Source of the DNA: Streptomyces antimycoticus
Lineage (GTDB): Bacteria; Actinomycetota; Actinomycetes; Streptomycetales; Streptomycetaceae
Reading direction: 5' to 3'
Assembly: GCF_005405925.1 (NCBI RefSeq)
Contig: NZ_BJHV01000001.1
Span: 5,952,001-6,016,000 of the forward strand
DNA: 64,000 nt
Shown here: positions 17,483 to 30,762 of the stretch, one piece after another
Position numbering within the stretch: position 1 is the stretch's first letter
Layout: the number at the start of each line of letters is the position of its first letter
Position numbers and translations under genes: made by a program
Notes under the pieces: model-generated
What the model saw: only the letters and a program-made list of their open reading frames with translations
Told to the model about the DNA's origin: nothing
Databases searched by the model: none

Positions 17483-19446
17483 TCACTCCGGGACCTCGCT
17501 CTCCCGTGCCGCGAGGCTGACGGCGAACGGCAGGATCGTCACCGCGACACCCGGCAGGTCCTCCAGCGCCTTCGCCAGCGACTCCGCCGTGCCCCGGTGC
17601 AGCAGCTTGCCCAGCGGGGAGGTATAGGTGCGGCGCGGCACCAGCAGGGTCAGCGCGGTCTGCCCGTCCTCGGTGGTACGGGCCGCCAGCTCCATCACCG
17701 CATGGCGCAGCCGCCGGTCCGGGCACGCCACGACCTCCAGCGCCACCGTCACCCCCGCCGTCGCCTCCCACCGCGCCATCAGCCGGCGGGCATGGCTCTC
17801 GTCCACCATGAAGTGCACCGCGCGGACCTCGTCGGGCCGCAGCTCATGGGCGTAGCGCAGCGCCTTGACCGTCGCGAGGTCGATGCTGTCCGCCAGGACG
17901 AAGACGACATGGCGCCGCCAGCGCGGGACGTCGTCCCCCGGACGCGGCACCGCCTCCAGGGCGGCCGCCTCCGCGCGGTACTCGCGGTTGATCCGGATCA
18001 GCGCCCAGACTCCCAGCGGGAAGACCACCACGACCAGCCAGGCGCCCTCGGTGAACTTGGTGATCCCGAAGATCAGCACCACGGCGGCGGAGACGGCCGC
18101 GGTGGTGAGGTTGACCGCGATCTTCCAGCCCCGGCCCGGCTCCCGCCGCCGCAGGTGATAGGCGGTCAGCCCGGCCCCGGCCATGGTGAAGGCGGTGAAC
18201 ACGCCGATCGCGTACAGCGCCACCAGCCGGTCCACATTGGCCTCGGTGACCACCAGCAGCGCCAGCGCCACCACGGCCAGCGCGATGATCCCGTTGGAGA
18301 AGGCCAGCCGGTGGCCGCGCCGGGTGAGCTGCCGGGGCAGAAAGCGGTCCTCGGCCACGAAGCTGGCCAGGAAGGGGAAGCCGGTGAACGGCGTGTTGGC
18401 GCCCGTGTAGAGGATGAGCGCGGTCGCCAGCTGGACGAACGCCAGCCCCAGGGCGCCCACCGCCCCGTCGCCGAAGACCAGATGGGCCTCCTGCGCGAGG
18501 ACGGTCGGGGTGCCGTCCCGGTACGGGATGGCGTGGGTGAAGTGGGCGAGGGCGGAGACCCGAGGACCAGCGTGCCCAGGATGCAGCTCATCGTGATCAG
18601 CGTGCGGCGGGCGTTGTGGCCCTTGGGGTCGCGGAAGACCGAGACGCTGTTGGAGATCGCCTCCAGACCGGTCAGCGAGGAGCCGCCGTTGGCGAACGAG
18701 CGCAGCACGATGAAGAGCGAGGCGCCGTAGAGCCAGCCGCCGTCCGGGGTGCCGAGGTGGACGGCGCCCGCGGCGTGCACATCGGCGTGCGGAAGCCGCC
18801 CGGTGAGCCCGCGGACCACGCCGACCACCAGCATCAGGCCGATGGCGACGATGAACAGATAGGCGGGCGCCATGAAGACCCGCCCGGCCTCGCGCAGTCC
18901 GCGCAGATTGCCATAGGCGAGGATCAGGATCACCAGGGCGCTGAGGGGCAGTTGGAGATGGTCGATACCGGTCCAGGTGCCGCCGACGAGATGGGCGAAC
19001 GAGATGATCGCGTTGGTGCCCGCCGAGACCTGGACCGCGACGGTGACGATGTAGTCCACCAGCAGTGCCACGGAGGCGATCTGGGCGATGTCCGGGCCGA
19101 AGTTATCCCGCGCCACGACATACGAGCCGCCCGCCCGGGTGTAGATCATCACCACATCGCTGTAGCAGAGCGTGACCAGCAGCAGCACCAGCAGAATCGT
19201 CCCGGTCACCGGAAGGATCAGGGAGAACGCCGCGACCCCGATGACCGGCACCAGCACCCGCAGCATCTCCTCGCTGCCGTACGCCGTCGAGGAGATGCAG
19301 TCGGAGGCCAGCACGCCCAGCGCGGCCGGGTTGCCCAGCTTCTCGCGCCGGATCCGCTCGGTGACCAGGGGCGGGCCGAGCAGCAGCCGCTTGAGTCGGT
19401 AGGCGGGGCGGTCGGGCGGCTGGATCGGGGCGGCGGGGTCGGCCAT
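17483..19446 (-). CDS. KimA/YdaO-like APC-family permease (apparent frameshift)
   Basis: Twelve-helix permease whose N-terminal half (NPAALGVLASDCISSTAYGSEE and YTRAGGSYVVARDNFG, in parts) closely follows Bacillus KimA, a high-affinity K+/H+ symporter. The last 200 residues are cytosolic and resemble the regulatory domain of that family. The frame breaks in the C run 18559-18561; restoring one base (minus-strand GGGG) gives LVLGVSALAHFTHA and a 654-residue protein, normal for the family. This is probably a sequence error. It lies 130 bases downstream of korB on the same strand. General amino-acid transport remains an alternative to potassium. Confidence 0.75.
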
Positions 19447-20651: not shown

Positions 20652-20659
<8 letters not shown>

Positions 20660-22604
20660 CGATGGCCTCCTTGAGGGCGGTGGCAAGCTGTTCGGCCTTG
20701 AAGGGCAGCCCGCGGACCTGGGTGAAGGAGCGGGTGTCGACCAGATAGCGGGCGCGCAGCAGCGTCGCCAGCTGACCCAGGTTCATCTCCGGCACCACCA
20801 CCTTCTCGTAACCCTCCAGCACCTTGCCGAGGTTGGCGGGGAAGGGGTTGATATGGCGCAGATGGGCCTGGGCGATCCGGTCGCCCGCGGTGCGGACGCG
20901 GCGCACCGCGGCGGTGATCGGGCCGTACGTCGACCCCCACCCGAGGACCAGGGTGCGGGCGTCGCCGGTCGGGTCGTCCACCTCGATGTCCGGCACGGTG
21001 ATGCCGTCCACCTTGGCCTGGCGGATGCGGACCATGTGCTCGTGGTTGGCCGGGTCGTAGGAGATGTTCCCCGAGCCGTCCTGCTTCTCGATGCCGCCGA
21101 TCCGGTGCTCCAGACCGGGTGTTCCCGGCACGGCCCAGGGGCGGGCCAGGGTCTCCGGGTCGCGCTTGTACGGCCAGAAGACCTCGGTGCCGTCGGCCAG
21201 CACATGGTTGGTCCCGGTCGCGAACTGGACGCGGAGGTCGGGCAGCTCGTCGACGTCCGGCACCCGCCAGGGCTCCGAGCCGTTGGCCAGATAGCCGTCC
21301 GACAGCAGGAAGACCGGGGTGCGGTAGGTCAGGGCGATCCGGACGGCGTCGAGCGCGGCGTCGAAGCAGTCGGCCGGGGTCTTCGGGGCCACGATCGGCA
21401 CCGGGGCCTCGCCGTTGCGCCCGTACATGGCCTGCAGCAGATCGGCCTGCTCGGTCTTGGTGGGCAGCCCGGTGGAGGGGCCGCCGCGCTGGATGTCGAT
21501 CACCAGCAGCGGCAGCTCCAGCGACACCGCGAGCCCGATGGTCTCCGACTTGAGCGCCACGCCCGGGCCGGAGGTGGTGGTCACGGCGAGGGAGCCGCCG
21601 AAGGCAGCGCCCAGTGCTGCGCCGATCCCGGCGATCTCGTCCTCGGCCTGGAAGCTGCGCACACCGAAGTTCTTGTGCTTGGACAGCTCGTGCAGGATGT
21701 CCGAGGCCGGGGTGATCGGATACGACCCCAGGAACAGCGGCAGATCCGCCTGGCGGGAGGCCGCGATCAGCCCGTACGACAGCGCCAGGTTTCCGGAGAT
21801 GTTCCGGTAGGTGCCGGTGGGGAAGGCCCTGGTGGCCGGGGCGACCTCGTAGGAGACCGCGAAGTCCTCGGTGGTCTCGCCGAAGTTCCAGCCCGCCCGG
21901 AAGGCCGCCACGTTCGCCTCGGCGATCTGCGGCTTCTTCGCGAACTTCTGCCGCAGGAACTTCTCGGTGCCCTCGGTCGGCCGGTGGTACATCCACGACA
22001 GCAGCCCGAGCGCGAACATGTTCTTGCTGCGCTCGGCCTCCTTGCGGGACAGGCCGAATTCCTTCAGCGCCTCGATGGTCAGCGTGGTGAGCGGCACCGG
22101 GTGGACGTGATAGCCGTCCAGCGAGCCGTCCTCCAGGGGGCTTTGGTCATAGCCGACCTTGGCCATCGGGCGCTTGGTGAACTCGTCGGTGTTGACGATG
22201 ATCTCCGCCCCGCGCGGCACATCGGGGAGGTTGGCCTTCAGTGCGGCCGGGTTCATCGCCACCAGTACGTTCGGCGCGTCACCTGGTGTGAGGATGTCGT
22301 GATCGGCGAAGTGGAGCTGGAAGCTCGACACTCCGGGCAGGGTGCCTGCGGGGGCACGGATCTCCGCCGGGAAGTTCGGCAGGGTCGACAGGTCGTTTCC
22401 GAATGACGCCGTCTCCGAGGTGAACCGGTCACCCGTGAGCTGCATACCGTCACCCGAGTCGCCCGCGAACCGGATGATCACCCGGTCCAGACGGCGGACC
22501 TCTTTACCGCCCTCTGCTGTTCGCTGCCCCCCGGCGGGCGTCTGCCCGCCCTGCTGATCGGCTGGTTCGGCCTGCTCGGCCGGGCTGCTGACCTGGCTGG
22601 TCAC
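20652..22604 (-). CDS. korA: 2-oxoacid:ferredoxin oxidoreductase, fused gamma-alpha subunit
   Basis: 650 residues. The N-terminal third is the gamma domain (VIIRFAGDSGDGMQLTGDRF) and the rest the alpha domain (GSYPITPASDILHELSKHKN, GAAFGGSLAVTTTSGPG and PLLVIDIQRGGPSTGLPTK). This is the fused two-gene form found in actinobacteria. GTG 22604 was chosen over a more upstream frame opening because GGGAGGTC precedes it. The first 35 residues are a Gln/Ala-rich linker. With korB it supplies reduced ferredoxin, which may feed the incomplete complex I encoded 6 kb away. Confidence 0.94.
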
Positions 22605-22731
22605 TGCTTCGGACCTCCCTTGAGGCGGCGCTCCCGGACAGTCGGTGCCGACCGGTTGTTGTCCCATGACCATCGTACGTCGGTAAGGGTGGCCTTCCTT
22701 GGCCGGATCACATGGTGGACGCCCAAAGAAG

Positions 22732-22839: not shown

Positions 22840-23532
22840 TCAGGAATTGAGATACGTGAGGACGGCGAGCACCCGACGGTGATCCCCGTCACTCGGCGAC
22901 AGGCCCAGCTTCAAGAAGATGTTGCTCACGTGCTTCTCGACCGCGCCGTCGCTCACCACGAGCTGCCGGGCGATGGCCGAATTGGTCCGCCCCTCGGCCA
23001 TCAGCCCCAGGACCTCCCGCTCCCTCGGGGTGAGCCCGGCCAGCACATCCTGCTTGCGGCTGCGGCCCAGCAGCTGGGCGACCACCTCCGGGTCGAGCGC
23101 CGTACCGCCCTCGGCGACCCGCACCACCGCGTCCACGAACTCGCGCACCTCGGCCACCCGGTCCTTGAGCAGATAGCCGATGCCCCGGCTGTTCCCGGCC
23201 AGCAGCTCCGTGGCGTACTGCTCCTCCACGTACTGCGACAGGACCAGCACCCCCAGGCCCGGATGGTCACGGCGGAGCCGGATGGCCGCCCGCACCCCCT
23301 CGTCGGTGTGCGTGGGCGGCATCCGTACGTCGGCCACCACCACATCCGGCGGCACGCCCTCGTCGGCCAGCTCCCGCACCGATTTGATCAGCGCCTCCGC
23401 GTCCCCGACGCCCGCGACCACCTCGTGGCCCCGGTCGGTCAGCAGCCGGGTCAGCCCCTCCCGGAGCAGCACCGAATCCTCGGCGATGACCACCCGTACT
23501 CTGTCCGGCACGATGCTCGGCCCCCGTTTCAC
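22840..23532 (-). CDS. NarL/LuxR-family response regulator
   Basis: 230 residues: an N-terminal receiver (RVVIAEDSVLLREGLTRLL, phospho-aspartate in VVVADVRMPP, lysine in GYLLKDRV) and a C-terminal LuxR helix-turn-helix (LTPREREVLGLMAEGRTN, VSDGAVEKHVSNIFLKL). It lies directly downstream of three sensor kinases on the same strand and is their obvious partner. GTG 23532 gives the longest form; GTG 23511 (VPDRVRVVIAED) is a possible alternative, since a 16-bp direct repeat including CTCGGCCCCCGTTTC covers the start region and blurs the ribosome site. Confidence 0.93.
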   Translation of the reverse strand: MKRGPSIVPDRVRVVIAEDSVLLREGLTRLLTDRGHEVVAGVGDAEALIKSVRELADEGVPPDVVVADVRMPPTHTDEGVRAAIRLRRDHPGLGVLVLSQYVEEQYATELLAGNSRGIGYLLKDRVAEVREFVDAVVRVAEGGTALDPEVVAQLLGRSRKQDVLAGLTPREREVLGLMAEGRTNSAIARQLVVSDGAVEKHVSNIFLKLGLSPSDGDHRRVLAVLTYLNS

Positions 23533-23662
23533 TCGGCCCCCGTTTCGCTTGTTCCGTGGGGACCAGCATCCCAGGGTTGGGCCGCCCGCGTCGCGCAGAA
23601 CCGGACGTATGCGACCGGTGGGGTCGTGCGCCCTCAGCGTCGGCCGTTTGGGTCGTGCGCCC

Positions 23663-25006
23663 TCAGCGCCAGGGGAGCTCGGCGGTCACGGTGGTCGGCC
23701 CACCGGGCGGGGAGTTGACGACGAGGATCCCGTCCACCGCGTCGATCCGCTCGGCCAGCCCGGCCAGACCCGAACCGGCGGAGGTGCCGGCCCCGCCCCG
23801 CCCGTCGTCCGTGATCTGCAGCAGCACCCGGTCCTCGGTGCGCCAGACATCGACCTCGGCGGTGCGGGCGCCGCTGTGCTTGCTGATGTTCTGGAGCAGT
23901 TCGGAGACGGTGAAGTAGGCGATTCCCTCGATCGCGGGCGCGGGCCGCTGCGGAAGGTCGACGCTCACGGTGACGGGGACGGTGCAGCGGGCCGAGAGGG
24001 CGGAGAGGGCGGGGCCCAGGCCGCGGTCGGTGAGGATCGCGGGATGGATGCCGCGGGCGAGGTCGCGCAGTTCCTGGAGGGCGAGTTTCACCTCGCCGTG
24101 GGCCTCGTCGACCATCTTCGCGGCGGCTTCCGGGTCCTCCTCCAGCTTCTCCTTCGCCAGACCGAGCCCCATGGCGAGGGCGACCAGCCGGGCCTGGGCG
24201 CCATCGTGGAGATCGCGCTCGATCCGGCGCAGATCCGCGGCGGCGGTGTCGACCACCGTGCCCCGGTCCGACTCCAGCTCCCAGACCCGGCTCGCCAGCC
24301 GGGACGGACCGAGCAGCCCGGCCACCATGATCCGGTCGACCGAGGTCAGCGCCCGCATCACCCACGGGGTCAGCAGCAGGACCAGCACACCCACGACACA
24401 GGTCGCGGCGATCTCGAACGGGGTGTCCAGATAGAACGCGCGCCCGTGGTCGTCCCCGAAGATCTGCAGGCCCGGCTCGTCCATGTACCGGGGGAAGACC
24501 CAGCGCCACAGCGGATAGGTCGCGAAGCCCCAGCCGTAGCTGGTGAAGGCGATCGCGAAGGTGAAGGAGAAGAGCGCCCACGGCAGATGGATCAGCGCGT
24601 AGATCACATGACGCCAGGAGGTGCCGCTCCTGAGCAGCGCGCCCACCCAGGCGACCGGCCCGCGCTTGCCCCCGCGGCCGCCCTTCCGGCCGAGGACGGG
24701 CTCGGGCTCGGCCACCTCCAGCCGCAGCAGGGCACGGGCGCGGGCCCGCTCGACGACGCCGAGCGCCCGGCAGCCCGCGAGGGCGGCGCCGAGCACCGGG
24801 ACGCCGAGGAAGGTGATCAGCAGCCCGGCGCCGAGCGCGAGCATCGTGATCGTGTAGACGAAGGTGAGGACGGCCATCGGCAGGCTGATCACGAGATAGA
24901 GGAACTCACGCCAGACCCGGGCCTGGAACGGCGCCTTCAGCGCCGCGGGCACCAGATGGCCACGGGGCTCGGTCCCCGGCTCGTAGGGTCGATATGCGGT
25001 GGCCAT
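23663..25006 (-). CDS. Sensor histidine kinase A, membrane sensor type
   Basis: 447 residues. The N-terminal 250 residues hold a four-helix membrane sensor domain (VWREFLYLVISLPMAVLTFV, PLWRWVFPRY). HisKA_3 follows with phosphorylated H267 in [19 protein letters not shown], then a GHKL ATPase with [12 protein letters not shown] and DDGRGGAG. This is the copy with its own distinct C-terminal end (GSGLAGLAERIDAVDGIL). Bases 23828-24280 are identical to the equivalent parts of the other two kinases, and everything upstream of them is identical to kinase B. The response regulator gene follows 130 bases downstream. Confidence 0.92.
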   Translation of the reverse strand: MATAYRPYEPGTEPRGHLVPAALKAPFQARVWREFLYLVISLPMAVLTFVYTITMLALGAGLLITFLGVPVLGAALAGCRALGVVERARARALLRLEVAEPEPVLGRKGGRGGKRGPVAWVGALLRSGTSWRHVIYALIHLPWALFSFTFAIAFTSYGWGFATYPLWRWVFPRYMDEPGLQIFGDDHGRAFYLDTPFEIAATCVVGVLVLLLTPWVMRALTSVDRIMVAGLLGPSRLASRVWELESDRGTVVDTAAADLRRIERDLHDGAQARLVALAMGLGLAKEKLEEDPEAAAKMVDEAHGEVKLALQELRDLARGIHPAILTDRGLGPALSALSARCTVPVTVSVDLPQRPAPAIEGIAYFTVSELLQNISKHSGARTAEVDVWRTEDRVLLQITDDGRGGAGTSAGSGLAGLAERIDAVDGILVVNSPPGGPTTVTAELPWR

Positions 25007-25139
25007 CGTCTCGTCCGTCCTCCGGGGCCTGGTGGGTCACGCGATCCGGGTCAGCAGGGTGGGTCGCGTTCTCTGCGTACACCCAGCGTCCCGGAGCGAG
25101 GTCGGCCCGACCATCGGGCGGATCGGCCTCTTCACCGGG

Positions 25140-25149
25140 GGGTTAGCCC
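25140..25149. promoter_or_regulatory. Candidate GGGTTAGCCC operator before kinase A
   Basis: GGGTTAGCCC followed by TACC lies 134 bases upstream of the kinase A start. It is one mismatch from the perfect palindrome GGGCTAGCCC found before kinase C. Probably an autoregulatory site for the neighbouring response regulator; this is inference from position and symmetry. Confidence 0.4.
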
Positions 25150-25271
25150 TACCTTCCGGGGGTGTGCAGGCGCCTTGCGGGAGCTGGCTCTTCGCCCCGG
25201 GGGGCTGGCTGCCTCCCTGGGGCTCGTTCTGCACTTCGGGGGGCTGGCTCTGCACTCCGGCGTCAGGCGCC

Positions 25272-26660
25272 TCACCGGGAATGCGCCACCGCCGTGCCCG
25301 CCGCCGACCCCGTCCGGTGGCGCCAGGGCAGCTCGGCGGTCACGGAGGTCGGCCCACCGGGCGGCGAGTCCACCGCGAAGAGCCCGTCGACCGAGCCCAG
25401 CCGATCCGTCAGCCCCGCGAGCCCCGTGCCCCCGTCGGTGGTCGCCCCGCCGTGTCCGTCGTCCCGTACCTGGATCAGCAGCCGGTCCTCGGTGCGCCAG
25501 ACATCGACCTCGGCGGTGCGGGCGCCGCTGTGCTTGCTGATGTTCTGGAGCAGTTCGGAGACGGTGAAGTAGGCGATTCCCTCGATCGCGGGCGCGGGCC
25601 GCTGCGGAAGGTCGACGCTCACGGTGACGGGGACGGTGCAGCGGGCCGAGAGGGCGGAGAGGGCGGGGCCCAGGCCGCGGTCGGTGAGGATCGCGGGATG
25701 GATGCCGCGGGCGAGGTCGCGCAGTTCCTGGAGGGCGAGTTTCACCTCGCCGTGGGCCTCGTCGACCATCTTCGCGGCGGCTTCCGGGTCCTCCTCCAGC
25801 TTCTCCTTCGCCAGACCGAGCCCCATGGCGAGGGCGACCAGCCGGGCCTGGGCGCCATCGTGGAGATCGCGCTCGATCCGGCGCAGATCCGCGGCGGCGG
25901 TGTCGACCACCGTGCCCCGGTCCGACTCCAGCTCCCAGACCCGGCTCGCCAGCCGGGACGGACCGAGCAGCCCGGCCACCATGATCCGGTCGACCGAGGT
26001 CAGCGCCCGCATCACCCACGGGGTCAGCAGCAGGACCAGCACACCCACGACACAGGTCGCGGCGATCTCGAACGGGGTGTCCAGATAGAACGCGCGCCCG
26101 TGGTCGTCCCCGAAGATCTGCAGGCCCGGCTCGTCCATGTACCGGGGGAAGACCCAGCGCCACAGCGGATAGGTCGCGAAGCCCCAGCCGTAGCTGGTGA
26201 AGGCGATCGCGAAGGTGAAGGAGAAGAGCGCCCACGGCAGATGGATCAGCGCGTAGATCACATGACGCCAGGAGGTGCCGCTCCTGAGCAGCGCGCCCAC
26301 CCAGGCGACCGGCCCGCGCTTGCCCCCGCGGCCGCCCTTCCGGCCGAGGACGGGCTCGGGCTCGGCCACCTCCAGCCGCAGCAGGGCACGGGCGCGGGCC
26401 CGCTCGACGACGCCGAGCGCCCGGCAGCCCGCGAGGGCGGCGCCGAGCACCGGGACGCCGAGGAAGGTGATCAGCAGCCCGGCGCCGAGCGCGAGCATCG
26501 TGATCGTGTAGACGAAGGTGAGGACGGCCATCGGCAGGCTGATCACGAGATAGAGGAACTCACGCCAGACCCGGGCCTGGAACGGCGCCTTCAGCGCCGC
26601 GGGCACCAGATGGCCACGGGGCTCGGTCCCCGGCTCGTAGGGTCGATATGCGGTGGCCAT
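25272..26660 (-). CDS. Sensor histidine kinase B, chimera of kinases A and C
   Basis: 462 residues. The sensor half (residues 1-242) is identical to kinase A, and the ATPase end ([20 protein letters not shown] and the tail [15 protein letters not shown]) is identical to kinase C. The joint falls within the 453-bp core (25482-25934) that all three share. Phosphorylated H267 and the ATPase motifs are intact, so it should be a working kinase with sensor A on catalytic end C. It arose by a tandem duplication of 1,654 bp; an assembly duplication is the main alternative. Confidence 0.85.
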   Translation of the reverse strand: MATAYRPYEPGTEPRGHLVPAALKAPFQARVWREFLYLVISLPMAVLTFVYTITMLALGAGLLITFLGVPVLGAALAGCRALGVVERARARALLRLEVAEPEPVLGRKGGRGGKRGPVAWVGALLRSGTSWRHVIYALIHLPWALFSFTFAIAFTSYGWGFATYPLWRWVFPRYMDEPGLQIFGDDHGRAFYLDTPFEIAATCVVGVLVLLLTPWVMRALTSVDRIMVAGLLGPSRLASRVWELESDRGTVVDTAAADLRRIERDLHDGAQARLVALAMGLGLAKEKLEEDPEAAAKMVDEAHGEVKLALQELRDLARGIHPAILTDRGLGPALSALSARCTVPVTVSVDLPQRPAPAIEGIAYFTVSELLQNISKHSGARTAEVDVWRTEDRLLIQVRDDGHGGATTDGGTGLAGLTDRLGSVDGLFAVDSPPGGPTSVTAELPWRHRTGSAAGTAVAHSR

Positions 26661-26793
26661 CGTCTCGTCCGTCCTCCGGGGCCTGGTGGGTCACGCGATC
26701 CGGGTCAGCAGGGTGGGTCGCGTTCTCTGCGTACACCCAGCGTCCCGGAGCGAGGTCGGCCCGACCATCGGGCGGATCGGCCTCTTCACCGGG

Positions 26794-26803
26794 GGGTTAG
26801 CCC
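26794..26803. promoter_or_regulatory. Candidate GGGTTAGCCC operator before kinase B
   Basis: Exact copy of the site at 25140, carried along by the tandem duplication and again 134 bases upstream of a kinase start. If the site is functional, kinase B inherited kinase A's control. Confidence 0.4.
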
Positions 26804-26924
26804 TACCTTCCGGGGGTGTGCAGGCGCCTTGCGGGAGCTGGCTCTTCGCCCCGGGGGCTGGCTGCCTCCCTGGGGCTCGTTCTGCACTTCGGGGGGCTGG
26901 CTCTGCACTCCGGCGTCAGGCGCC

Positions 26925-28157
26925 TCACCGGGAATGCGCCACCGCCGTGCCCGCCGCCGACCCCGTCCGGTGGCGCCAGGGCAGCTCGGCGGTCACGGAG
27001 GTCGGCCCACCGGGCGGCGAGTCCACCGCGAAGAGCCCGTCGACCGAGCCCAGCCGATCCGTCAGCCCCGCGAGCCCCGTGCCCCCGTCGGTGGTCGCCC
27101 CGCCGTGTCCGTCGTCCCGTACCTGGATCAGCAGCCGGTCCTCGGTGCGCCAGACATCGACCTCGGCGGTGCGGGCGCCGCTGTGCTTGCTGATGTTCTG
27201 GAGCAGTTCGGAGACGGTGAAGTAGGCGATTCCCTCGATCGCGGGCGCGGGCCGCTGCGGAAGGTCGACGCTCACGGTGACGGGGACGGTGCAGCGGGCC
27301 GAGAGGGCGGAGAGGGCGGGGCCCAGGCCGCGGTCGGTGAGGATCGCGGGATGGATGCCGCGGGCGAGGTCGCGCAGTTCCTGGAGGGCGAGTTTCACCT
27401 CGCCGTGGGCCTCGTCGACCATCTTCGCGGCGGCTTCCGGGTCCTCCTCCAGCTTCTCCTTCGCCAGACCGAGCCCCATGGCGAGGGCGACCAGCCGGGC
27501 CTGGGCGCCATCGTGGAGATCGCGCTCGATCCGGCGCAGATCCGCGGCGGCGGTGTCGACCACCGTGCCCCGGTCCGACTCCAGCTCGGCGATCCGCCGC
27601 TCCAGCTCATCGGAGGGGAACAGCAGCCCGCGCACCATCGCCCGATCCGCATGCGTCAGCCCCCGGGCGATCCACGGCAGCACCGGCCAGGCGACGAACA
27701 GCGAGGTCAGGGTGAGCGCGAAGGTGACCACCGCCCACGGCAGCCGGATCAGGGCGTACAGCGTGGCGCGCCAGCCCACCGGGTCCCGCAGACTCGTCCA
27801 CAGCCGGCTGAGGAAGCCACTGCCCGGCCGGTACGGCAGGGGGCTGGGCTCATCGATGTGCACCGAGAGCAGCGCCCGGGCGCGGTTCCGCTCGAACCGG
27901 CCGAGGAGCCGGCTGAAGCGCAGCCCCAGGGCCAGCAGCGGCAGCCCCACCACCGTGACGGACAGCCCCAGCCCCACGGCCAGCCAGACCAGGGTGAGGA
28001 TGAAGCAGACGATGCCCACCGGCAGATTGGCCAGGAGATAGGCGATCTCCTTCCAGGTCTGCGCGGGAAAGGCGAACGCGGGCGGCCGCGGCAGCCGCTC
28101 GTCGCCGCGGCCACGGCCGCCGCCGTCGGGGCCGTGGACGGGGGAACTGGAGGTCAT
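26925..28157 (-). CDS. Sensor histidine kinase C, membrane sensor type
   Basis: 410 residues. The sensor half is unlike that of kinases A and B in sequence but has the same four-helix plan ([40 protein letters not shown]). The HisKA_3 core with H215 is identical to the others, and its C-terminal end is shared with kinase B. It is the first gene of the minus-strand kinase/regulator run and is divergent from nuoA of the second complex I operon, with a 180-bp gap between the starts. Confidence 0.92.
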
Positions 28158-28337: not shown

Positions 28338-28760
28338 GTGCCGGAGGCGACGACCGTACACACCACGAGTGGCGCCGGCGTCCAGCTCGCGGACGGCTAC
28401 TTCCAGGGCTATACGGTGGTCGGACTGCTGGCGGCGATCGGCGTGATCTTCGTCGCCGTGGCCTTCGGGGCCGGGCGACTGCTGCGGCCGGTGGTGCCGA
28501 CGCCCGAGAAGCTGCTGACCTACGAGTGCGGAGTGGACCCGGTGGGCGAGGGCTGGGCCCACACCCAGGTCCGTTACTACGTCTACGCTTTTCTGTATGT
28601 GATTTTCGCGGTGGACTCGATCTTCTTGTTCCCGTGGGCGACGGTCTTCGCGGCACCCGGCTTCGGGGCCGCCACGCTGGTGGAGATGTTCATCTTCCTC
28701 GGGTTCCTCGCCGTAGGTCTGCTGTACGCATGGAAGAAGGGCGTCCTGGAGTGGACGTGA
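28338..28760 (+). CDS. nuoA: NADH-quinone oxidoreductase subunit A, second operon
   Basis: 140 residues and three membrane helices. The conserved segment [20 protein letters not shown] with [20 protein letters not shown] (in part) identifies NuoA, whose loop with the YECG cysteine lines the quinone-site entrance. GTG 28338 follows GGGGCGGAC. First gene of the incomplete second complex I operon. The stop overlaps the nuoB start (GTGA). Confidence 0.94.
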
Positions 28761-29425: not shown

Positions 29426-30762
29426 CCGAGCCGAACGAGCCGAACGAGACGCCGGAGCGGACCGGGGCGGCGGAGTCCGCAGAGGTCGAGCCCGCGGAGG
29501 TGGCGGAGCCCGCAGAGGTGGAGCCTGCAGAGGCGGAGCCCGCTGCGGTGGCCGCGCCGCCTGTGGGCTGGCTGCCGCGTTCCGCCACCGAGCTGTTCGG
29601 CGAGGGCGCCACGGCGGAGGAGGCGTACGACCTGCTCACCGTCGACGTCCCCGCCGACTCCTGGATCGCGTCGCTGGAGACGGCCCGCGACACCCTCGGC
29701 TGCACCTACTTCGACTGGCTGAGCGCGGTCGACGAGCCGGGCACCGGCTTCCGGGTGGCCGCGTACGTCGTCGCCCTCGGCGGAGGCGGGGGCGCGGGCG
29801 GGCGCGCGGTGCGCTGTCTGCTGGTGCGCACCACCGTGCCGCACGACGCGGCCGCGCTGCCGACCGCGACCGGCGTCTACGCCGGGGCGGCCTGGCATGA
29901 GCGCGAGACCCACGAGATGTTCGGCATCGGCTTCACCGGCCACCCCGGTCTCGCGCCGCTGCTGCTCCCCGACGGCTTCGAGGGGCATCCGCTGCGCAAG
30001 GACTTCGTGCTGGCGGCCCGGGTCGTCAAGGCGTGGCCGGGCGCGAAGGAGCCGGGGGAGTCGGGCACCGGCCACGGCCCCAAGCGCCGGCAGATGCTGC
30101 CGCCGGGCGTCCCCGACCCCAACGAGTGGGGCCCTCTCAAGGGCCAGCTGCCCCCTGCCCCGACCCGCCCGGCCCGCGGCGCCCGCGCGGCAGGCGCCGC
30201 CGCGGGCGACCGCCCCGCCCGCCGCACCCGCACCGCGACGGCCGGCTCCGCGAGCCAACGCCCGGCCGGCGCGGAGCCGACGGCGGACGCCCCGACTCCG
30301 GCGTCCGAACGCGCGGCACGGCGCTCGCGCAGCGTGAGCGAGGGGTCCGCGAGCCAGCGTCCGGCGGGTGCGGAGCCGACGGCGGAAGCCTCGGCCCCGG
30401 ACGCCGCCGCCAGTCGGCGGGCCGTGGCCGATGAGCCCTCGGCCGCCGCCGCGCCACCGGCACCCGAAGCCCCCGCGGCCGATGACGCCACCGGGGCCGA
30501 GTCGCCCGCATCCGCGGCCCGGGCGCACCCGCGCCGCCCCGCGCCGCGGACCCGCTCGTCCGATGCCCCCTGGCATCATGCGCGCCCCGCGCGGGACGAG
30601 GATGCCGAGTCCCCGCGCGAGCCGGAGGCGCCGAAAGCAGCGGAGGCCGAGGCGGACGGAGACGGACGCGGGGGCGAGGAACCCGGTCCCGCCTCCGAGA
30701 CGCCCGACACCCCTGACGCCCCCGACACCAACTCCGACGACCAGCCAGGAGGCACCGCGTGA
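29422..30762 (+). CDS. nuoC: NADH-quinone oxidoreductase subunit C with a long disordered tail, second operon
   Basis: Residues 50-215 form the 30-kDa subunit domain: [40 protein letters not shown] and [19 protein letters not shown] 230-residue tail rich in Ala, Pro, Arg and Glu follows, with repeated [12 protein letters not shown], and has no recognisable fold. Usual NuoC proteins are about 170-240 residues. The N-terminus also has a Glu/Pro/Ala repeat. The next gene is nuoH, so the nuoD normally found here is absent. Overlaps both neighbours by 4 bases. Confidence 0.88.

Follow-up and report, generated by a model that had tools for sequence, protein, structure and literature searches.

Three sensor kinases at the AbrC locus

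We analysed a window of DNA from the soil bacterium Streptomyces antimycoticus (the whole stretch under study, 64 kb), in which positions 22840-28157 of the minus strand hold sensor kinase genes and a response regulator gene. Along that strand, three kinases (C, then B, then A) precede a single regulator. The genes belong to the known AbrC system, with C as AbrC1, A as AbrC2 and the regulator as AbrC3. Their make-up is that of AbrC, with PF13796/HisKA_3/HATPase_c kinases in one direction and a LuxR-type regulator after them, and three kinases in place of two are a variation on that plan. The genes are as follows.

22840..23532, minus strand: response regulator, AbrC3 orthologue, 230 amino acids, with Response_reg and GerE/LuxR domains (Pfam)
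23663..25006, minus strand: kinase A, AbrC2 orthologue, 447 amino acids, with Sensor PF13796, HisKA_3 and HATPase_c
25272..26660, minus strand: kinase B, a chimera of 462 amino acids; residues 1-393 are the A sensor and core, residues 394-462 the C end
26925..28157, minus strand: kinase C, AbrC1 orthologue, 410 amino acids, 97% identical in the relative G408

The PF13796 sensor, HisKA_3 (residues 260-323 of A) and HATPase_c were matched in each of the three kinases with Pfam, the HATPase_c scores of B (25.0) and C (25.6) falling slightly below the cut-off of 26.4. An RDLHD motif is present in all three cores, and its histidine, counted on the translations, is H267 in A and B and H215 in C. Proteins 93-97% identical to kinase A were found in four relatives (G408, G055, G165, and G096), and the regulator is 100% identical in G408, where it adjoins two kinases. 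The reading frame of kinase B is open throughout, with the same start and upstream GGAGG as kinase A.

A tandem unit bounded by kinase cores

Repeats were mapped by exact self-comparison of the window. At an offset of 1654, positions 23828-25203 equal 25482-26857 over 1376 bp with zero mismatches; at an offset of 1653, positions 25200-25934 and 26853-27587 are identical over 735 bp; and at an offset of 3307, positions 23828-24280 and 27135-27587 are identical over 453 bp, which means that a core of this length is identical in all three kinase genes. The array reads core, unit, core, unit, core. Long homology thus bounds the unit and an extra copy of that homology stands at the end, as in a tandem duplication between direct repeats. 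Its elements are listed below.

23828..25481, minus strand: unit copy 1, 1654 bp, with the A core, A sensor half, intergenic stretch and B tail
25482..27134, minus strand: unit copy 2, 1653 bp, with the B core, B sensor half, intergenic stretch and C tail
25199..25204: run of 6 G, the sole difference between the unit copies (5 G at 26853-26857)
23828..24280, minus strand: 453-bp core in A, residues 243-393, with the linker, DHp with the RDLHD motif, and N-box
25482..25934, minus strand: 453-bp core in B, with the exchange point somewhere within
27135..27587, minus strand: 453-bp core in C, residues 191-341

The difference of six versus five G is intergenic, upstream of the start codons of A and B. 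Kinase B equals A to residue 393 and then follows C to the stop over the last 69 residues of C, a C-type end made up of the last 54 residues and a 15-residue extension. As assembled, the repeat in the window is far beyond chance; no further directly repeated 40-mer was found on the forward strand of the 64 kb.

An initial annotation of this DNA had given the same coordinates, lengths and single G difference, all of which proved correct in the self-comparison. Its description of B as the sensor half of A joined to the catalytic end of C, with the junction inside a core common to all three genes, also held. Its explanation by unequal crossing-over is supported, since gene order and junctions are as expected after a single exchange between the cores of A and C. 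The further claim that a sensor had been moved onto another catalytic end was right for the ATP-binding end, which differs, but not for the phosphotransfer domain (DHp/N-box), which is the same in A, B, and C, so that no rewiring to another regulator is implied.

The age of the duplication can be bounded by comparison with relatives. Set against the same stretch in G408 and G055, the 1654-bp unit shows 73 and 74 mismatches, respectively, plus gaps, while the copies within the window show zero substitutions over about 2100 compared bases, for a divergence below about 0.14% (rule of three). The duplication should therefore be much younger than the split from these relatives, unless conversion maintained the likeness. 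The initial annotation had called it recent, which is likely given that no substitution separates the copies, but the identity does not date it strictly, because conversion among the copies could maintain it. Streptomyces recombine between strains, and B might instead have been imported as a segment from another strain. However, each part of B is identical to its resident counterpart in A or C, while the relatives' unit is as distant as stated above; we rejected a foreign origin of B on these grounds and regard it as scarcely credible.

Kinase number in relatives

The initial annotation held that related strains have two kinases at this place, and comparison with relatives bore this out. Two kinases were present in 7 of the 7 genomes examined that are nearest by the A-type sensor (G408, G055, G165, G096, G396, G381, and G384). 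We further inspected 120 loci, a first set of 40, each with one A and one C, and another 80, with 11 loci repeating a genome of the first set. C followed by A was seen in 117 of the 120; two of the other three lie at contig ends, and in the third (L156) the core contains a run of N.

Across the genus, an A-type sensor was found in 361 of 392 genomes. Ten genomes had two matches, which form a tandem pair in the window only: eight of the nine other second matches are a remote paralogue with 40-46% identity, and the ninth, in G404, is a second copy on a separate 31-kb contig, so that further tandem triplicates among these nine genomes were ruled out. The G404 contig (L246, C3:24000-31263) carries its second A kinase together with a copy of the regulator.

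The A-type sensor had no match in 31 genomes. We searched 20 of these for the C type, together with G230, G242, and G266, which had lacked a match in another scan, and with G043, G113, G135, and G272, and obtained a match in 20 of the 27; tails were classified in 13 genomes overall. In the locus from G043 (L245, 4460-4481), the C kinase seemingly lacks ∼57 core residues at a point with no N, reflecting either a deletion or an assembly error.

Gene conversion of the kinase core

We next compared A with C of the same genome along their length, with the C kinases of other genomes as the control, in bins of 12 residues and at third codon positions. The comparison covered 109 genomes, namely the window and 108 loci, the latter left from 124 after removal of 16 (11 duplicates and 5 incomplete). 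These genomes are not a random sample: 40 are the best matches to A, 4 are close relatives, and the rest are named loci best matching B. The own-genome pair exceeded the other-genome pairs in third-position identity by 8 to 24 points in every bin from residue 248 to 391. Outside the core the own-genome excess ranged from -6 to +6 points in the filled bins (the -6 bin has 28 filled rows, and bins 164-211 are empty), and the edges of the tract, near residues 248 and 391, are sharp. Mean identity in the core was 86.9% for A and C of the same genome, compared with 81.9% among A kinases, 82.1% among C kinases, and 80.3% for A and C of different genomes. The own pair exceeded the mean orthologue in the core in 83 of the 109 genomes, both for A and for C. 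In the sensor half the own pair reached 58.9%, versus 73-74% for orthologues.

Trees gave a corresponding picture. On quick trees of 218 tips, the core required a minimum of 35 switches between A and C, against 1 in the sensor half and 4 in the tail; quick trees on 55 genomes gave 25 switches and 1. A and C of the same genome were sister tips in 24 of the 109 genomes for the core (two of these pairs, in L123 and L170, weakly supported), in 0 for the sensor half, and in 3 for the tail. A single clade of all A cores was rejected in the approximately unbiased test (p-AU 1e-69, 15 switches) on 24 genomes that were hand-picked for closeness or high core identity, with two sets of identical rows left free. 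The sensor halves and the last ∼54 residues mostly retain their type. In the tail, the type is told best by position 428, with L in 108 of 109 A kinases and F in 104 of 109 C kinases, and by positions 409 and 407. The tail adjoins the converted tract, yet type changes in it are rare (the four switches above), and selection or lower homology may be what stops conversion there.

Within genomes, then, the paralogues are closer than orthology predicts, at silent sites too and over a bounded tract, and the sequences indicate that recurrent gene conversion homogenises the two AbrC kinase cores. The core holds the DHp helices, through which a kinase contacts its regulator, and its protein identity is high, so we considered whether purifying selection on an AbrC3-facing surface, without DNA copying, had kept the cores alike. 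The silent-prone third positions, however, carry the same own-genome excess with the same sharp edges, and protein selection cannot raise the silent-site match within a genome over that between genomes; selection alone is therefore rejected as highly improbable. Genome-wide codon bias is excluded as the main cause because the sensor half of the same genes shows an excess of about zero.

Conversion is recurrent rather than constant, in that the A and C cores of the same genome are not sister tips in 85 of the 109 genomes, and other figures also speak against too strong a version of this conclusion. The A core lies closer to its own C than to every other A core in just 19 of 109 genomes, and the converse holds for C in 24 of 109; among all C cores, the one from the same genome is the best in 61 of 109. 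In a set of 41 genomes there is also a small own-genome excess outside the core, in the sensor half (58.5 versus 57.7) and in the tail (73.2 versus 71.8), which was reached by 1 and 0 of 5000 shuffles, respectively, and is about a tenth to a fifth of the core excess (87.1 versus 80.5). Own-genome core identity was at least 95% in 10 of the 109 genomes and 100% in two, the window and L077. For the model in the initial annotation, this means that the duplication is supported, but the likeness of the cores is not its product, being present between the two kinases of two-kinase relatives too.

Reciprocal fusions with one kinase

Among the genomes without an A-type sensor match, G069, a near-complete assembly of 2 contigs, has one kinase at the locus, flanked by nuoA and the regulator. 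Its sensor is nearest to the C kinase of S. coffeae (88%) and its tail to the A kinase of S. coffeae (94%), and the best 20 tail matches are all A. At the sites that distinguish A from C in agreement between S. coffeae and NEAU-Y11, all but one are A-like, at residues 382-438. With no such site nearer the start of the core, the exchange point is bounded, not located.

Three further genomes appear fusion-like by tail scores of 12.0 (G145), 14.6 (G198), and 33.0 (G017), but their assemblies comprise ∼80, ∼790, and ∼1140 contigs, and a collapsed locus is possible there; in G145 and G017 the stretch yielded no nuoA. The reciprocal product, an AbrC1 sensor with an AbrC2 end, is firm in G069 and less sure in these three. 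Tail scores near zero were obtained for G113, G135, and G073. In G214 and G272 a C sensor is followed by a C-like tail, so that simple loss of A is equally likely; G272 also retains a sensor remnant before the regulator. As read from these loci, both products of unequal exchange exist, the three-kinase array of the window and, as its mirror, the fusion in G069.

Counterparts of the locus

We presume from the neighbouring genes that the S. coelicolor counterparts bear the tags SCO4596-4598, and that they likewise lie between nuo and ferredoxin oxidoreductase genes. AbrC1, AbrC2, and AbrC3 are reported as SCO4598, SCO4597, and SCO4596, respectively (PMC4428217), and the system is described as controlling antibiotic production and differentiation in this species (PMC4428217, PMC3098853, PMC9739842). 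S. coelicolor has two kinases and one regulator of the make-up seen here, and the window differs by its third, chimeric kinase. According to PMC4428217, AbrC1 and AbrC2 both autophosphorylate, at H214 and H270, respectively, abrC1 and abrC2 share a common transcript, and deletion of abrC1 leads to higher antibiotic production. Its authors infer that AbrC2 is the more effective AbrC3 kinase and that AbrC1 may be a phosphatase. The same source gives 83% nucleotide and 57% amino acid identity between AbrC1 and AbrC2; nucleotide identity above protein identity would be expected of a local match to the core alone.

A laboratory event in S. coelicolor offers the closest comparison. In LinR, as summarized in a review (PMC9739842), a deletion spanning part of both genes joins AbrC1 to AbrC2 in frame, with altered lincomycin resistance, actinorhodin production, and differentiation as the outcome. 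Since the genes are co-directional, the fusion should carry an AbrC1 front and an AbrC2 end, which is the reciprocal of B and the architecture of G069. Kinase B does not have this architecture, having an A front and a C end in an additional gene, whereas the single kinase of G069 does. LinR and the window are alike in fusing the same two kinases and differ in that LinR is a deletion leaving one kinase and the window a duplication giving three.

Other systems were more distant. By sequence, the nearest solved structures to the catalytic half of B are those of DesK (7ssj and 3gig; E 7e-13), with residues 257-441 of B aligning, and the likeness to DesK and other HisKA_3 kinases lies in the sequence of this half; we know of no paralogue exchange for DesK. 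In Burkholderia thailandensis, a 208.6-kb tandem duplication between insertion sequences is reported to change a two-component system (PMC12124856), and in Ehrlichia, ntrX is reported to undergo gene conversion from an inverted segmental duplication (PMC9937504). Both resemble the present case in that recombination altered copy number or caused conversion within a two-component system, but neither, as presented in these sources, is a recurrent homogenisation of kinase cores with natural chimeras. Among the matches listed, the titles and abstract openings of open-licence PMC articles mentioned neither gene conversion of AbrC kinases nor a natural three-kinase AbrC locus, and the terms 'gene conversion' and 'recombination' are both missing from the main text of the AbrC review PMC9739842.

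Origin of the array

Taken together, these data suggest that the window holds an expanded AbrC locus with a tandem unit, very probably made by recombination between kinase cores on a background of recurrent conversion, with the opposite exchange giving the one-kinase fusions. Conversion leaves many genomes with two very similar stretches of ∼450 bp, about 1.5-1.7 kb apart, and homologous recombination between two such cores probably then created the triplicate state. The route could have been template switching, an unequal crossover of sister chromosomes, or excision of a circle followed by its re-insertion, all of which would look alike here, while an exchange in the opposite direction would yield a fusion with one kinase. 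The same recombination could return the array to two kinases or collapse it to one, and the array is probably young and unstable.

Several observations weigh against this account. First, L077 (from G232) has two kinases with cores 100% identical, silent sites included, and no duplication, so core identity alone does not lead to expansion. Second, diagnostic sites in the window core are mixed, three at 280-281 being C-like and four at 350-355 A-like, a pattern compatible with either order of homogenisation and duplication. Third, B itself is absent from the best 120 listed of 5688 protein matches, where 90% clustering could hide it. Fourth, the array, as read from assembled sequence, could have arisen during assembly: in the assembly graph, the identical 453-bp cores of a two-kinase genome form a loop (C tail, intergenic stretch, A sensor, core) that may be walked twice. 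The array has exactly the structure and near-perfect identity that such an error gives, the loop being exactly one unit. Fragmented assemblies fare badly at this point, with contigs of G034, G126, G133, G152, and G156 ending inside or just past the kinase core and 158 N in the core of S. atratus (L156, 4843-5000), so that kinase number is unreliable in such genomes.

The assembly of the window's genome (G000) is of a different kind, with 3 contigs totalling 11.17 Mb. Six complete 16S genes lie on the 10.9-Mb contig that holds the window, meaning that the assembly had resolved repeats of more than 453 bp. A single G also separates the copies, which is itself weak evidence, because a permease-like gene in the window (18166-19446, minus strand) changes frame near its end, as either a broken gene or a sequencing indel. 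On balance, we consider an assembly artefact unlikely.

The same 120 listed proteins were scored for an A sensor joined to a C end: 20 of them fell under a cut of 8, mostly near zero and hence ambiguous, and only P0062 (-16.9) and P0063 (-21.1) looked C-like (-25.3 for B). The score of P0063 is also that of L120, a two-kinase locus of S. smaragdinus whose A kinase carries a C-type end; the end can thus be exchanged without a third gene.

Possible consequences for AbrC signalling

The third complete gene, B, a putative active kinase, combines an AbrC2-type sensor with the common core and an AbrC1-type ATP-binding end. By analogy with S. coelicolor, C, B, and A are probably co-transcribed. With the same DHp surface, all three kinases should address AbrC3, and mixed dimers could form. 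With B, a second input of the AbrC2 type would be read out by an ATP-binding end of the AbrC1 type, and the phosphorylation balance of AbrC3 should shift as a result. Should the end determine whether kinase or phosphatase activity prevails, B would behave like AbrC1 while responding to the signal of AbrC2; should the sensor half determine it, B would simply double AbrC2.

B may instead be a neutral and transient by-product of recombination that does not affect signalling, a reading that fits with the duplication as such. Recombination is expected to remove long perfect tandem repeats again, and with no substitution between the copies there is no sign of selection on B. On the other hand, the B gene is open and has the upstream GGAGG of A, and a strong phenotype is reported for LinR, the other AbrC fusion on record (PMC9739842). 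We regard a neutral by-product as a serious possibility, if somewhat short of an even chance.

The wider pattern, of repeated conversion of a kinase core throughout the genus that has led in nature to loci with one or three kinases, is of more interest than the duplication alone. In most descriptions, paralogous kinases diverge in the surface that faces the regulator, which is the surface kept together here. We tentatively propose, with slightly more doubt than confidence, that AbrC is a natural hot spot of recombination, where repeated conversion keeps one regulator-facing core common to several sensors, the sensors and ATP-binding ends stay distinct, and crossovers in the core move lineages among one-, two-, and three-kinase states, as a recurrent and possibly selected re-setting of antibiotic control. 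If so, it would be a natural case of DNA copying helping to keep two sensors wired to one regulator. It would also predict which rearrangements are possible, namely a swap of sensor and end in one direction with gene gain, as in the window, and in the opposite direction with gene loss, as in G069 and LinR. The system controls antibiotic production in the well-studied S. coelicolor, and the natural chimeras could help to locate the region of an AbrC kinase on which its balance of kinase and phosphatase activity depends.

Flanking genes

In the window and in most of the relatives compared, the kinase locus sits between nuo-type and ferredoxin oxidoreductase genes. Two of these served as landmarks.

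28338..28760, plus strand: nuoA homologue, flanking the C side; beside the kinases in G408, S. coffeae, G069, G198, G214, and G272, and not found in the G145 stretch
20652..22673, minus strand: 2-oxoacid:ferredoxin oxidoreductase alpha homologue, past the regulator, from comparison with relatives

Both names were given from the sequence and are presumptive. Beyond the nuoA- and nuoB-like genes, a 99-nucleotide direct repeat (76%) lies at 30202-30399 within a long open frame, which we take to be a nuoC-like gene.

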